From Spirochaetota bacterium (lineage in GTDB: Bacteria; Spirochaetota; JAHITG01; JAFGFC01), in contig JAFGFC010000172.1 in the NCBI GenBank assembly GCA_016931325.1, forward strand, positions 1 to 36,895: 36,895 nucleotides of DNA, given 5' to 3'. The position numbers and the translations under genes are program-made. Positions 14,184-20,091 of this stretch are shown one piece after another. Below the pieces are notes generated by a model, which was given only the letters and a program-made list of their open reading frames with translations, made no database searches and was not told where the DNA came from. Every line of letters begins with the position of its first letter. Position 1 is the first letter of the stretch.

Positions 14184-15134
14184 TTATTTCTCTTTAATAA
14201 GAGGTATAAAGATCTTCTGTCCGGGATAGATCAGATTAGGGTCTTTTATCTTTTTCCCGTTTGTCTGGTATAATCCGACCCAATTATAAGGATTTTTCAT
14301 ATATTTTTCCGATAGAGCCCAGAGCGTATCATTTTTCTTTATCGTATAAAGGATCAATTGCACCTCGGCTGTTTTATTCCTTTTTTTCAACGAAGGGGCG
14401 ATCATTTTTTCGATCCGTTTTTTAAGGATCCCCTCCATGGTTTGAAGTTTTTTTAATGACTTTTCCTGAGATTTCTTCATGGTTAATAACTGGTCTTTTA
14501 ATGATGAGACAACTTCCTTGTTGTATTCCTCTGTCCTGTCGAGAACCTGCTGAAATTTCGTATCAACGATCTCTGTAATGCCCTCATGGGTCAGCCCTTT
14601 TTCATTAAGATATTTTTGAGTGGTGTTGTTAAAGTAATGTTTTACGTATTTACTTTTCATGAATTGTATACCTATGATGCTGAATAAAGCGAGATTCAGA
14701 ATGGTAAATACAATAAACAGGATAATGATCTTTTTAAAAACTAATCCTTCCTTTAATTCTGGTGTTTCCACTTTGGCCTCTTTAATATCTAATATTTTTA
14801 TATGGTCTGATGATGGCTGGGTTTTTTTACCTGTCACGGCCGGTTTTACAATTGACGGTTTGGGCCGATTAATACTTTTGGAAGGCCTTGAGGAAGTAAA
14901 ATGGGGAGTGATGGTTTGAGGAACAGTTTCCATCTCGCCTGTTGTCTTGTTTTTCATTAATCTGGATTTGATCACAGCCCCTTCAAAAGATCCGAACTTG
15001 GGGAGGCTGACCTTTTCATTCCGGGAAAGACCCAGTTTGAGGGTAGAAAAAAAGGATTCAATGAATTGAGCGGCCATTTCAGGTTCAAGATTTTCATTTT
15101 TAGCAAATTTTAATACAAGCTGTTCTCTGATCAT
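14184..15134 (-). CDS. Membrane-anchored HU-like / LysM fusion protein
   Basis: The 316 residues carry four parts. Residues 1-86 match the HU/IHF fold (MIREQLVLKFAKNENLEPEM..., LPKFGSFEGAVIKSR, KNKTTGEMETVPQTI as beta arm, HFTSSRPSK end). A linker follows (87-130). A single membrane segment spans about 136-158 (IIILFIVFTILNLALFSIIG). Then come a coiled-coil-prone stretch (about 185-250) and a C-terminal LysM domain (about 261-312, YTIKKNDTLWALSEKYMKNP...LIYPGQKIFIPL). HU binds DNA and LysM binds peptidoglycan, so the protein could link nucleoid and wall across the inner membrane. This is inference. Its start overlaps the stop of the small HU gene (ATGA). Confidence 0.78.
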   Translation of the reverse strand: MIREQLVLKFAKNENLEPEMAAQFIESFFSTLKLGLSRNEKVSLPKFGSFEGAVIKSRLMKNKTTGEMETVPQTITPHFTSSRPSKSINRPKPSIVKPAVTGKKTQPSSDHIKILDIKEAKVETPELKEGLVFKKIIILFIVFTILNLALFSIIGIQFMKSKYVKHYFNNTTQKYLNEKGLTHEGITEIVDTKFQQVLDRTEEYNKEVVSSLKDQLLTMKKSQEKSLKKLQTMEGILKKRIEKMIAPSLKKRNKTAEVQLILYTIKKNDTLWALSEKYMKNPYNWVGLYQTNGKKIKDPNLIYPGQKIFIPLIKEK

Positions 15135-15349
15135 TTCTGATTGATCTCTTCTAATAATTCAGGACTGGGATTAAATTTGATCTTGTTCTTGTCCTTTTTC
15201 AGGAACGTGCCGAATGCGGGTATTTCCAGATCTTCTTTGGCCAGGGTCTTATTTAAAAGTTCGATTAAATCAGCTGTATATTTTCTTGCCTCTTTCTTGT
15301 TCATTTTACTCTGCTCACTGATGAGGGATATAAATTCCTGATAATTCAA
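15131..15349 (-). CDS. Short, armless HU/IHF-like protein
   Basis: This 72-residue protein starts MNYQEFISLISEQSKMNKKE and has the two N-terminal helices of HU and the turn IPAFGTFLKK. It then goes directly to KIKFNPSPELLEEINQK. The beta-arm segment that HU uses to clasp DNA (normally around RNPQTG) is missing, accounting for the roughly 20 residues it lacks compared with the usual 90. It should dimerise; DNA binding is doubtful. A natural partner is the HU half of the LysM fusion, whose start overlaps this stop by ATGA. It lies 4 bases downstream of the cyclase. Function is inferred. Confidence 0.7.
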   Translation of the reverse strand: MNYQEFISLISEQSKMNKKEARKYTADLIELLNKTLAKEDLEIPAFGTFLKKDKNKIKFNPSPELLEEINQK

Positions 15350-15353
15350 AGGT

Positions 15354-16919
15354 TTACGTTTCCTTTATATCATATAATTCATAGATCTGGATCGGTTTTT
15401 CTTTTCCTTTTACATAGATCGGCTCTACTTTTTTTGCAATAACAAAGTTTTTAACAAGGTTATAAGTTGATTCGGTCACAATGATATTATGCAATCCCTT
15501 TTTCCCGGCGGTATCACATAACCGGGACGCCAGATTGACATTATCGCCAATAACCGTATAATCGACCCGCTTTTCCGAACCCATATTCCCGGCGATCACC
15601 TGACCGGAATTGATCCCGATCCCGCATTGAAGTTCGAGCAACCCCTGTTCCTTGCGTTTGGCATTCCACGCTTCCAGTACTTTCATCATCTCAACGGCTG
15701 TTCGAACTGCCAGTTCAGGGTCATTCTCGTGTTCAAAAGGAGCGCCATAGACGGCCATGATCTCATCACCGACATACTTGTCAATGACACCTTTATATTT
15801 AATAATAATATCAGACATTAAAGTGAGATATTCATTAAGCATGGCTACAACTTCATGAGCCGCCATGCTCTCTGAAATTGTGGTAAAATTCCTTATGTCA
15901 GAGAATAGCATGGTCACTTCTTTATAGGCTCCTCCCAGTTTCATGGCATCCGGATTAGCCAGCACCGCTGTGGCCACATCTTCTGATACGAATTTATTAA
16001 ATGTATTTTTTATTTTTTCTTTTTCTCTCAGGCCTTCGGTCATTTCATTAAAACTCCAGGCTAAAAGACCTATCTCATCATGACTTTTAATGTTAACCGA
16101 TTGATTGAGATCTCCTTTGGCTACCTGGAGCATGGCGCCCACCAGCCGTTTAATAGGCCGGGTAATAAAAAGAGCCAAGAGAAACGCTCCCCCCAGACCA
16201 AGGAAAACAGAGAAAAAAGCGACATTTAACAGTTTCCCTTTGGCTTCCTGAATGGTCTTCAAGATCCCTTCTTCTGACATCCCGATATGCACTTCACCCT
16301 GGTAAGTCTTAAGGGATGATTCTTCCTGTTCTTCTTTGAGCGGAAAAGCGACATCCAGGATACGACCTGATCGTTCTTCAGAAGAAACAGGATCCATGTA
16401 TTTCCCTTCATACATCTGAACCTGAGGCTCCACTTTGCCTTTTTTATATAAATTTTTATATAACCCGACATCAGAAGGGAGCTTTAATTCAGACAGGGTC
16501 TGGATGTTTTTATCAGAATGAGCAATGATCTGTTCAAAGGGATTGGCAATAAAGGCATAAATTACATCTTCCTGCTTTAGCATCTTGGAGGTATTTTCCG
16601 AAAGTCCCAGTTCAAAATAATCGATCCGGTTGTAGTCTTTTCGGGTCACTTCTCTGGCCCCGGCAATTTCACTGAGCTTGGCCGCGAGGGCTCCCTGAGC
16701 GTTGTTAGCCAGGTTGATGGCCAGAGCCCCGCCTCGAAGCTGCATCTGACGTGTCAAGGCGTCTCTTTCATCTTTTAATGTGGTGCGGTAAACGACAATA
16801 ACTACGAGTAAGACAAGAATAATGACCAGCCAGATGATCTTGGTGCGAAGGCTGAATCTTATTTTTATATGGTGAGGATGACCTTTTTGTGGTTCTTTTT
16901 TTTCAGTATCACCGCTCAT
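15354..16919 (-). CDS. Membrane class III adenylate/guanylate cyclase with extracytoplasmic sensor and HAMP
   Basis: The 521 residues run: cytoplasmic tail, membrane segment (about 28-44), periplasmic sensor of about 185 residues (Cache-like by size and position), second membrane segment (about 232-253), HAMP (254-306, ITRPIKRLVGAML...HDEIGLLAWSFNEM), then a cyclase homology domain (about 330-500). Metal-binding D341 (LFSDIRNFT) and D385 (DKYVGDEIMAVYG) are present, as are N462 and R466 (VNLASRL). The residues around VDYTVIGD fit ATP use, so cAMP is the likely product. It probably heads the operon with the two HU-like genes. A consensus promoter ends 9 bases before the ATG and no Shine-Dalgarno is seen. 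Confidence 0.88.
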   Translation of the reverse strand: MSGDTEKKEPQKGHPHHIKIRFSLRTKIIWLVIILVLLVVIVVYRTTLKDERDALTRQMQLRGGALAINLANNAQGALAAKLSEIAGAREVTRKDYNRIDYFELGLSENTSKMLKQEDVIYAFIANPFEQIIAHSDKNIQTLSELKLPSDVGLYKNLYKKGKVEPQVQMYEGKYMDPVSSEERSGRILDVAFPLKEEQEESSLKTYQGEVHIGMSEEGILKTIQEAKGKLLNVAFFSVFLGLGGAFLLALFITRPIKRLVGAMLQVAKGDLNQSVNIKSHDEIGLLAWSFNEMTEGLREKEKIKNTFNKFVSEDVATAVLANPDAMKLGGAYKEVTMLFSDIRNFTTISESMAAHEVVAMLNEYLTLMSDIIIKYKGVIDKYVGDEIMAVYGAPFEHENDPELAVRTAVEMMKVLEAWNAKRKEQGLLELQCGIGINSGQVIAGNMGSEKRVDYTVIGDNVNLASRLCDTAGKKGLHNIIVTESTYNLVKNFVIAKKVEPIYVKGKEKPIQIYELYDIKET

Positions 16920-17068: not shown

Positions 17069-17080
17069 TCCTGAAAATAT

Positions 17081-17144
17081 ATAATGGTGCCTGCTACTTT
17101 TTCTTATGTTTAATTCAAACACAGATAGAGCAAGGCACCATTAT
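17081..17144. repeat. Inverted repeat with 11-bp arms
   Basis: ATAATGGTGCC (17081-17091) and GGCACCATTAT (17134-17144) pair perfectly across 42 bases. The core GGTGCC also appears near 16970 and 17030, so the gap holds three direct and one inverted copy. No gene is visible in 16958-17168. Confidence 0.6.
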
Positions 17145-17168: not shown

Positions 17169-18128
17169 TTAATGCCTTAAAGGACCGCCAAATTTATAAG
17201 ATATGGAAAATTGATGGACAACACCCAGATCAAAATTATAGTTCAAAGCGTAATCAAAGAGAAAATCTCTTAAAATGATACCGATGCCTCCGGTCAGGCC
17301 ATTTTTATAACCCACTCTCAGGGGAATTATTCTCATGGCTATATATTCTATTCCCACATTTAATTCCAGAGTACTTTTTCTAAAGAGGATCTGGGTCAGA
17401 TCAAGATTGATCAAAAGAGTATCATATAATGTTTTAAAACAAGTTCCGAATTTCAGGGTCAAAGGATACCATTCTCTGATATCATCAAATTTATGAGTGG
17501 GAGGGAGTATGTTCTGGACCAAAAGCCCGAAAGTAAAGTTATGAAGAAATCCGGTTGTTTTCGAAGGCACATATTTTGCCCCCAGGTCCAGGGCAATACC
17601 ATAACTGGTATAGTGAGACATGCTGTGCTTGACAAATTTAAGTCCCGCTCCCACATCGAGAAATCTCAAATGCCGGGAGCGGAACTTTTTTATATTATAG
17701 AGGGGTGCTCCGTATGCTAAAATAAGCATCATCTGCGAATCTGAATAGACTCCCAGATCTTCCAGATTTTCACCAACGCCCACGATATCACTGGTCCCCA
17801 GGTAGATCAAGCCGGCAGAAAAGGTGCCAACGCCATATACCGGCAGGGCATATCCTAAAAACCAGAAGGTTGTTCCTTCATAAAGTTTTTCATAGAGGCA
17901 GCTGACTTCCTGCCTGATCATTGTTCCTAATCCGGCCGGATTCCAGAACAAAGCGCTGACATCATCGGAAAGAGCGGTATAGGCTGCTCCCAGGCCCATG
18001 GCGCGTGTTCCCGGAATATAATTAAGGACAGGCAGAGTGACTCCGCCATCACCTTCAGCAAAAATGTGTCCTGTTAGCAGAACAAAGCATATTAATAATA
18101 ATAAGATGTTAAATTTCAGCATATCCAT
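17169..18128 (-). CDS. UPF0164 / PorV-like outer-membrane beta-barrel protein
   Basis: The 319 residues begin with a signal peptide (LKFNILLLLICFVLLTGHIFA, probable cleavage after FA). They continue with the conserved opening of the UPF0164/PorV family: PGTRAMGLGAAYTALSDDVSALFWNPAGLG. The rest alternates short hydrophobic beta strands ending in YKFGGP. The family forms FadL-like barrels and is abundant in spirochaetes; substrates are unknown in most cases. Two in-frame ATGs exist (18128 and 18122), neither with a Shine-Dalgarno. A consensus sigma-54 promoter at 18138-18153 predicts transcription from about 18127, which would favour the ATG at 18122. An intrinsic terminator follows at 17039-17068. 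Confidence 0.75.
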   Translation of the reverse strand: MDMLKFNILLLLICFVLLTGHIFAEGDGGVTLPVLNYIPGTRAMGLGAAYTALSDDVSALFWNPAGLGTMIRQEVSCLYEKLYEGTTFWFLGYALPVYGVGTFSAGLIYLGTSDIVGVGENLEDLGVYSDSQMMLILAYGAPLYNIKKFRSRHLRFLDVGAGLKFVKHSMSHYTSYGIALDLGAKYVPSKTTGFLHNFTFGLLVQNILPPTHKFDDIREWYPLTLKFGTCFKTLYDTLLINLDLTQILFRKSTLELNVGIEYIAMRIIPLRVGYKNGLTGGIGIILRDFLFDYALNYNFDLGVVHQFSISYKFGGPLRH

Positions 18129-18327: not shown

Positions 18328-20091
18328 TTATAATTTGGCTGCCTCCTGGAATCTGATATCAAATTCCAGTATCCCCAGAATGTGTTCCTCTTTTTTATCA
18401 AAAACAGGAGTGGATACAGTAATGCATAGCGCATTTGTGATCTTGGAGACATAAAAATCAGTCACACTGGTTTTGCCGGTTTTCATGGGATTGATGAACC
18501 ATTCGCAGTCAGTAAAATCACCTTTCGTGAATTGGTCATATTTGCTTTTATCGATAACCCGGGATATATTATCAGTGACACGTCTGCCATCCTTGTCCGT
18601 AACGGCTATCAGCTGAATAAAAGGATTTTGACTGATCACCTTTTTCAGGTATTTTTCCATTTCTGCCTTTTTAAAGGAATGCATAACAGGATTTTGAGCC
18701 ACGTCTTCAATAAGATGCTGGACACCGGAGCGTACATTCTCTTTGATCTGATCAAATTCTGATTTAAATAGTTCAGGAATGTGTCTCCGTACCATTTTAA
18801 GCATCTCTTCATCAGAGATAGCCGTTGTCCTTTTTCTGGTATATTCTTCCATAACCCATTCGTATATTTTCAAAACACCCGGATGATGCTTGTCTACTTT
18901 GTCCTTTTCAGGTAATCGTAAATGCATGTTGATCCATAAGGCGATTCCGGCGACTCCCGATTTATCAGTGATGCCGATCGTGATGGGTCTTTTTAAGATC
19001 CTGGCCGTATCAAAGATAGTATAGATCTCCGGATTCTTGATAACCCCGTCAGCATGAATACCGGCCCTTGTCATATTAAAGTCCTCACCGACAAAAGGGA
19101 AATTATGCGGTATAGGCACGCCCATTTCCCGGTAATAGTCAGCCGCTTCATTGATCGCCGTTGTATCGATGCCGTCAAGGCCCCCTTTTATACCAATATA
19201 TTCAAAGATCAGAGCTTCGATAGGGGAATTGCCCGTTCTTTCTCCGATCCCGAAAAGGGACGCATTAGCGGCTGAAGCGCCGTACAACCAGGCTGTGGCT
19301 GTATTAATGTGGACCTTGTGAAAGTCATTATGACCGTGCCATTCTAGATATTCTGAAGGGACGCCGGCATCGTGCCTCAGGGCCATGATCAATTTGGGGA
19401 TACTTCTGGGAAGGGCAATGCCGGGATACGAAAGACCTAATCCGAGGGTATCACACAGACGTATCTTCACAGGCATCTTGCTCTCTTTTGAGAGTTTCAT
19501 CAGCTCGATGGCAAACGGCACGACAAATCCATAAACATCCGCTCTTGTCACATCTTCAAAATGACATCTGGGAATAACTCCGTGATTTAACGCTTCTTTG
19601 ATCGTATCAAGGTAAATGTCCATGGCCTGTTTCCGTGTTTTATTCAGCTTGAGGAATATATGATAATCAGAACAGGATACCAGTATTCCTGTTTCCTTCA
19701 AACCCATATTTTTTACCAGTTCAAAATCCTTTTTCACGGCCCTGATCCACCCGGTCACTTCAGGGTATTTATATCCCTTAGCGAGACAGGCCTCGACGGC
19801 TTTCTTGTCTTTTTCACTGTAAAGAAAAAATTCACTGAACCGGATGACGCCTTTCTCTCCCCCGATCCTTTGCAAGAAATCAAATAATTTTGAGATCTGC
19901 TCAACCGTAAAGGGGGGGCGTGATTGCTGGCCATCCCTGAATGTTGTGTCAGTGATCCATATATCTTCAGGGATATCAAATGGTTCCATCAGATGATCGA
20001 ATATTATTCTGGGTGGCTTGCTGTAAGGAAAAATATCTCTGTAAAGGTTGGGATATTTGACATCCTGTAATTTATATTTCGAACCGGTCAA
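18328..20091 (-). CDS. HMGL-family acyltransferase (isopropylmalate/homocitrate/Re-citrate synthase-like) fused to a Cache-like domain
   Basis: Residues 45-350 form an HMGL-like TIM barrel. DTTFRDGQQ (48-56) supplies the metal Asp and catalytic Arg, WHGHND (251-256) the metal HxH, GIGERTGNSP the glycine loop, and AGIHADG (343-349) the His of the homocitrate/Re-citrate branch. These enzymes condense acetyl-CoA with a 2-oxo acid. The C-terminus, about 475-587 (QNPFIQLIAVTDKDGRRV...ILGILEFDIRF), resembles a PDC/Cache sensor and not the LeuA regulatory domain. No membrane segment is seen, so a cytoplasmic ligand sensor is implied. The exact oxo acid cannot be told. AGGAGG precedes the ATG, overlapping the end of the gene before it. 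Confidence 0.7.
   Translation of the reverse strand: MTGSKYKLQDVKYPNLYRDIFPYSKPPRIIFDHLMEPFDIPEDIWITDTTFRDGQQSRPPFTVEQISKLFDFLQRIGGEKGVIRFSEFFLYSEKDKKAVEACLAKGYKYPEVTGWIRAVKKDFELVKNMGLKETGILVSCSDYHIFLKLNKTRKQAMDIYLDTIKEALNHGVIPRCHFEDVTRADVYGFVVPFAIELMKLSKESKMPVKIRLCDTLGLGLSYPGIALPRSIPKLIMALRHDAGVPSEYLEWHGHNDFHKVHINTATAWLYGASAANASLFGIGERTGNSPIEALIFEYIGIKGGLDGIDTTAINEAADYYREMGVPIPHNFPFVGEDFNMTRAGIHADGVIKNPEIYTIFDTARILKRPITIGITDKSGVAGIALWINMHLRLPEKDKVDKHHPGVLKIYEWVMEEYTRKRTTAISDEEMLKMVRRHIPELFKSEFDQIKENVRSGVQHLIEDVAQNPVMHSFKKAEMEKYLKKVISQNPFIQLIAVTDKDGRRVTDNISRVIDKSKYDQFTKGDFTDCEWFINPMKTGKTSVTDFYVSKITNALCITVSTPVFDKKEEHILGILEFDIRFQEAAKL

Follow-up and report, generated by a model that had tools for sequence, protein, structure and literature searches.

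Paired HU-fold proteins and a single-span LysM fusion in Spirochaetota: a candidate link between nucleoid and peptidoglycan

Gene content of the locus

The window (the whole stretch of 36,895 nucleotides analyzed here, from a spirochaete genome of 2.88 Mb) carries on its minus strand three neighboring genes, which are spaced by +4 and -4 bases, with an ATGA overlap at the second junction. The first codes for a 521-aa membrane HAMP-class III nucleotide cyclase (15354..16919), identified by its Pfam domains, its relatives in the PDB, and its invariant catalytic residues. The next specifies a 72-aa armless HU protein with a TTG start (15131..15349), the probable dimer partner of the third product, a 316-aa fusion of HU, a transmembrane (TM) span, a long helix, and LysM (14184..15134) that was delineated from its open reading frame, Pfam matches, orthologue alignment, and a structural model. 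The initial annotation had proposed both this arrangement and these identities; the open reading frames lie where it placed them, and Pfam and AlphaFold/Foldseek agree on the products. Random adjacency of the genes was rejected, as three further genomes carry the operon and many more carry the HU pair. Upstream of the cyclase lies a minus-strand gene for a UPF0164/PorV-like outer-membrane protein (17169-18128; weak Pfam matches), and the intergenic region between the two holds an inverted repeat, TAATGGTGCCT...AGGCACCATTA (17080-17140), that looks terminator-like by eye. The minus-strand gene at 18328-20091 shows, by Pfam, an unusual pairing of an HMGL-like aldolase domain with a C-terminal MCP-like PDC/Cache sensor and has no obvious TM segment.

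The 72-aa protein matches Pfam Bac_DNA_binding (PF00216) over residues 1-55 (E 1e-8; 35.7 bits against a cut-off of 22.4), and its AF2 model (pLDDT 72) shows the helices and strands of the HU core with the arm absent. Its best Foldseek/VIA-align matches are all HU/IHF structures, E. coli HU (2o97) being aligned with a VIA Z of 8.7 and an rmsd of 3.5 over 69 residues. The arm columns are missing from this protein and from its two order-level orthologues in the alignment, bearing out its earlier description as armless, and it is near neutral, with a net charge of about +1. Five HU-type matches are found in its own genome, two of them canonical and located elsewhere (contigs C118 and C174); therefore, the small HU and the fusion constitute a specialized pair, and their interpretation as the ordinary chromosomal HU was rejected.

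The N-terminal HU domain of the fusion (residues 1-84; 14883..15134, minus strand) is recovered by Pfam (PF00216, E 3.9e-14; 53.1 bits against 22.4), by alignment, and by Foldseek/VIA matches to HU (1p71 and 3rhi). The HU-like fold expected at this end is thus seen, with residues 1-89 matching HU/IHF structures. The domain is basic (pI about 10) and has an arm with lysines in which the tip proline is replaced (KNKT/KNSK/KNET); hence, neither HU of the window has the DNA-wrapping beta-arm with its tip proline, which the alignment shows to be kept in genome G004 and in the Treponema-like members. A hydrophobicity scan places the single membrane span at residues 136-156 (14667..14729, minus strand). 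It is followed by a long amphipathic, hendecad-like helix predicted to be periplasmic (residues 183-251; 14382..14588, minus strand) and by the C-terminal LysM (residues 263-311; 14202..14348, minus strand; Pfam E 1.7e-9, 37.9 bits against a cut-off of 20.9), the best-conserved stretch of the fusion across orthologues. The AlphaFold model, with a mean pLDDT of 61 from an alignment of four sequences, shows the HU pattern at 3-72, a TM helix at 130-179, the long helix at 183-251, and the LysM region, block pLDDT along the long helix rising from about 48 to 88. The hydrophobic repeat of this helix is 3.66-3.68 residues in three orthologues that are not independent of one another, each value being matched by 2 in 1000 shuffles. 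This period, about 11/3 and not 3.5, is consistent with a hendecad bundle and does not support a classic heptad coiled coil; of the coiled coil initially annotated here, the long helix is seen in the model. In the Treponema-like fusions, a Pro/acidic linker replaces the long helix.

The cyclase has an N-terminal-side TM, an extracytoplasmic sensor region, a second TM, a HAMP domain (residues 247-299; 16023-16181, minus strand), and a Guanylate_cyc domain (residues 332-510; 15390-15926, minus strand; E 4e-29), the latter two scoring over the curated Pfam cut-offs; its extracellular part gives a weak, below-cut-off match to sCache (E 0.014). Six residues, D341, K381, D385, D453, N462, and R466, are invariant across four cyclase orthologues and constitute what we take to be the class III set of metal-binding Asp pair, substrate Lys, and transition-state Asn/Arg. 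The protein thus combines the domain and the catalytic residue set of class III adenylate cyclases, and its closest solved relatives are adenylate cyclases (6fht, 3r5g, and 2w01). Given these relatives and the invariant catalytic positions, the enzyme is probably active.

Distribution of the operon and of the HU pair

A scan of contigs with single proteins found no relatives, and a scan with alignments found three. The order cyclase, small HU, HU-TM-LysM is repeated in two genomes of the window's order (G001 and G002), with 63-66% identity in the cyclase and 43-44% in the fusion, and in G004 of another class, with 44% and 25%, respectively. The gene argS comes next after the operon in the window and in G001. 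G004 has a small HU of 100 aa that contains an insert as long as the arm, and a fused HU with a complete RNP arm; accordingly, the absence of the arm in the window's order is probably a derived state. Cyclase and HU genes adjoin in exactly four of the 12 best cyclase homologues, and no HU gene was found in the flanks examined of the full-length homologues from G013, G018, G043, and G047.

We then surveyed long open reading frames with an HU domain, flanks included, from 60 relatives. They reveal a two-gene module in which a free HU is followed by an HU-linker-TM protein ending in a LysM or LysM-like domain, the two genes usually overlapping, by 4 to 62 bases where measured, and being separated in one pair by a gap of +12. 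A profile (A4) recovered 20 full-length fusions (E<=1e-60) from nine families among 393 Spirochaetota genomes, and a free HU gene lies directly upstream in 20/20, a figure subject to selection bias, as some profile seeds were chosen because the pair was visible. Fifteen of these fusions are in the profile itself, and five are new (G355, G110, G069, G227, and G208). The count is a lower bound, because divergent members (G003, G162, and the AT-rich family f11) fall under the threshold. In G043, the match to A4 comes in two pieces, and the upstream region lies beyond the contig end. Free HU proteins are mostly 72-107 aa long, G045 having an extended form of 207 aa.

As anticipated in the initial annotation, full-length homologues retain a single span together with LysM or a LysM-like domain, the LysM of several relatives being below Pfam detection and recognized through the alignment. 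The architecture of the HU pair is real and conserved across the phylum. The module neighbors vary, including purB, KARI, ligA, IGPS, an MCP, and glgB; this makes the HU pair the core of the module and the cyclase a lineage-specific addition to it. The initial annotation had treated the cyclase as part of the module, and as a core component it was rejected: it adjoins the pair in only four genomes, and most HU-TM-LysM pairs lack a cyclase neighbor. A tblastn search of plasmids gave only ordinary HU among the matches listed. Separately, spirochaete proteins of ~285 aa without a TM segment have a C-terminal HU (L076:4350-5201, L077:4515-5390, and L079:4771-5631); their ~180-aa N-terminal region yielded no convincing Pfam match.

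Topology, pairing, and DNA binding

Every fusion member has one clear hydrophobic span. The initial annotation had cautioned that charge does not settle the topology, and indeed the K+R count within 15 residues of the span, summed over members, is nearly even (69 on the N-side versus 54 on the C-side), making charge alone a weak guide, even with the strong N-side excess of some members (7:1, 6:1, 5:1, and 8:3). We infer an N-in/C-out orientation, since HU is a cytoplasmic fold, no signal sequence precedes this soluble N-terminal part, and HU-less relatives are TM-first LysM proteins. With one span, the N- and C-termini lie across the membrane from each other, as the tether initially suggested would need, and with this topology, the LysM would bind peptidoglycan in the periplasm. 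The HU-less TM-LysM proteins, which have the same C-terminal extension (L134:3146-3862, L135:3134-3883, L136:2832-3479, and L137:3164-3817), may be where the membrane part of the fusions came from. The genomes of L136 (G349:C1:3761843) and L137 (G361:C87:24681) hold the HU-TM-LysM pair in addition to the HU-less paralogue.

The chains from G011 and G023 (AT-rich family f11, probably Brachyspira) and from G162 hold two to four HU-like repeats followed by a TM and a LysM-like end; of these repeats, the profile used included the first and not the later ones. The occurrence of tandem HU domains within a single chain supports two HUs acting as one dimer, and translational coupling together with the 20/20 co-occurrence suggests that the free and fused HUs are a pair. 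The small HU had earlier been put forward as the dimer partner, and this idea gains support from both lines of evidence; we infer that the two form a heterodimer.

In most members (G004, G016, G201, and Treponema-like forms), the two HUs are basic, with the RNP-type arm, a known DNA-contacting element of HU, on at least one of them. The HU domains of f11 and G162 lack the arm and are acidic (pI 4.3-4.7), pointing to protein binding over DNA binding. The f11 genomes show at most one weak PF00216 match, with no canonical HU seen among the matches listed, and in the two that were read this match is the acidic tandem-HU TM LysM-like protein itself (L087:5059-6885 and L088:4388-6310). In the window's order, DNA bending of the classic HU type is unlikely, because the arm is gone from the small HU and the tip proline from the fused HU. 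Taking these features together, DNA binding appears likely for most family members, doubtful for f11, and uncertain for the proteins of the window. The DNA-to-wall tether of the initial annotation remains plausible by its domains and span, while its DNA-binding end is weaker in the window than first supposed.

Proposed function and comparison with known systems

We propose that the free HU, in the window the armless 72-aa protein, would pair in the cytoplasm with the N-terminal HU domain of the membrane protein, which would span the inner membrane once, continue into the periplasm (as a long helix in the window's order), and end in a peptidoglycan-binding LysM. Such a wall-anchored dimer might keep DNA of the chromosome, or else a partner bound to the nucleoid, at the inner membrane, with degenerate versions binding protein instead of DNA. 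In the window lineage, the adenylate cyclase co-transcribed with the pair, itself a membrane protein, is presumably an envelope sensor that produces cAMP in this setting. The peptidoglycan binding, DNA binding, and tethering, as well as any role of the cyclase in the module, are thus predicted functions. An HU heterodimer tethered to peptidoglycan at the inner membrane, binding DNA or, in degenerate forms, protein, is in our view the best explanation, to which we give an even chance.

The strongest rival is that DNA binding has been lost from the HU-derived domains, which instead form a protein-protein dimer of the kind predicted for CCDC81-type HU, the whole being a wall-anchored membrane scaffold for clients such as envelope, polar, or flagellar proteins or the neighboring cyclase. 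The loss of the arm in the small HU and of the arm proline in the fused HU would fit this, as would the acidic armless HUs of G011, G023, and G162, and the small HU of the window is the top match to HU-CCDC81_bac_2 among 41 spirochaete genomes, yet below the cut-off. However, the basic HUs with an RNP arm in most members are hard to explain without DNA binding, and even the fused HU of the window is still basic with lysines in its arm, leaving the scaffold on balance unlikely. Another reading makes the locus a cyclase signaling unit in which the LysM protein senses the state of peptidoglycan and controls the cyclase, the HUs being a regulatory or DNA-binding output. The identical three-gene order in two classes, the intact catalytic residues, and the four adjoining pairs among the 12 cyclase homologues speak for it, but most HU-TM-LysM pairs lack the cyclase and have unrelated neighbors (purB, KARI, ligA, and IGPS), and four full-length cyclase homologues lack an HU gene in their examined flanks; we regard it as improbable. 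There would be no trans-membrane tether if the LysM lay inside, as in soluble Kbp, with the HU outside, or if there were no true TM. To the nearly even flanking charges can be added one Kbp-based Foldseek match of the LysM part, but with an HU-first order lacking a signal peptide, a clear span in every member, and an N-terminal span that places the LysM of the HU-less relatives outside, this reading is very hard to credit.

The positioning and segregation of chromosomes in the very long, thin cells of spirochaetes are poorly known. For both, a conserved gene pair in which one span connects a DNA-packaging fold with a fold that binds the wall is a direct candidate, and its occurrence in Treponema-like genomes brings it into groups in which cultivable relatives are expected for some members. 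If the heterodimeric HU/TM-LysM proteins form a nucleoid-peptidoglycan link throughout the phylum, with cAMP control in some lineages, a proposition we hold only tentatively, the tether from DNA to wall would be direct, with no ParA or Noc go-between.

A search of the available literature on HU-LysM fusions found no paper; the comparisons here are with systems that share parts of this architecture. The window cyclase has the catalytic residues and domain order of CyaB-type class III adenylate cyclases with HAMP but sits in an operon with an HU pair. The window pair has the fold and the proposed dimer type of the HU/IHF nucleoid proteins, whose structures both window proteins match, but differs in its membrane-anchored partner and its lost or altered arm. 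HubP, a polar landmark protein like FimV, has a single TM and a periplasmic LysM and modulates, through ParA1, where the origin of chromosome 1 lies in Vibrio cholerae (PMC8789113); it is a precedent for a peptidoglycan-anchored chromosome tether, in which a TM-LysM protein places an origin at the pole. The LysM of FimV binds sacculi (PMC12918733). These proteins share with the fusion one TM and a periplasmic LysM (a predicted location in the fusion), but their order is opposite, running from signal peptide through LysM and TM to a cytoplasmic C-terminus, with no HU, and HubP contacts the chromosome indirectly, by way of ParA1. The fusion has neither the N-terminal LysM nor, by Pfam, the TPR/FimV C-terminus of these proteins. 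Burroughs et al. are said to have described, in 2017, CCDC81-type HU-TM-SPOR proteins of Bacteroidota, for which a role in chromosome partition was only predicted. They resemble the window proteins in combining cytoplasmic HU-type domains, one TM, and a periplasmic peptidoglycan-binding domain. In contrast, the spirochaete proteins have LysM, Pfam having detected no SPOR in the window fusion or its relatives, and are mostly encoded by two overlapping genes rather than as one chain; with the HU-CCDC81_bac profile, the window proteins score 20.8 and 26.3 bits against a cut-off of 35, which 0/41 spirochaete genomes exceed. The Bacteroidota proteins are the nearest known architecture, with HubP/FimV as the apparent functional analogue. 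The spirochaete gene pair suggests that HU fusions linked to membrane and wall extend beyond Bacteroidota and can take the form of a split, translationally coupled dimer.
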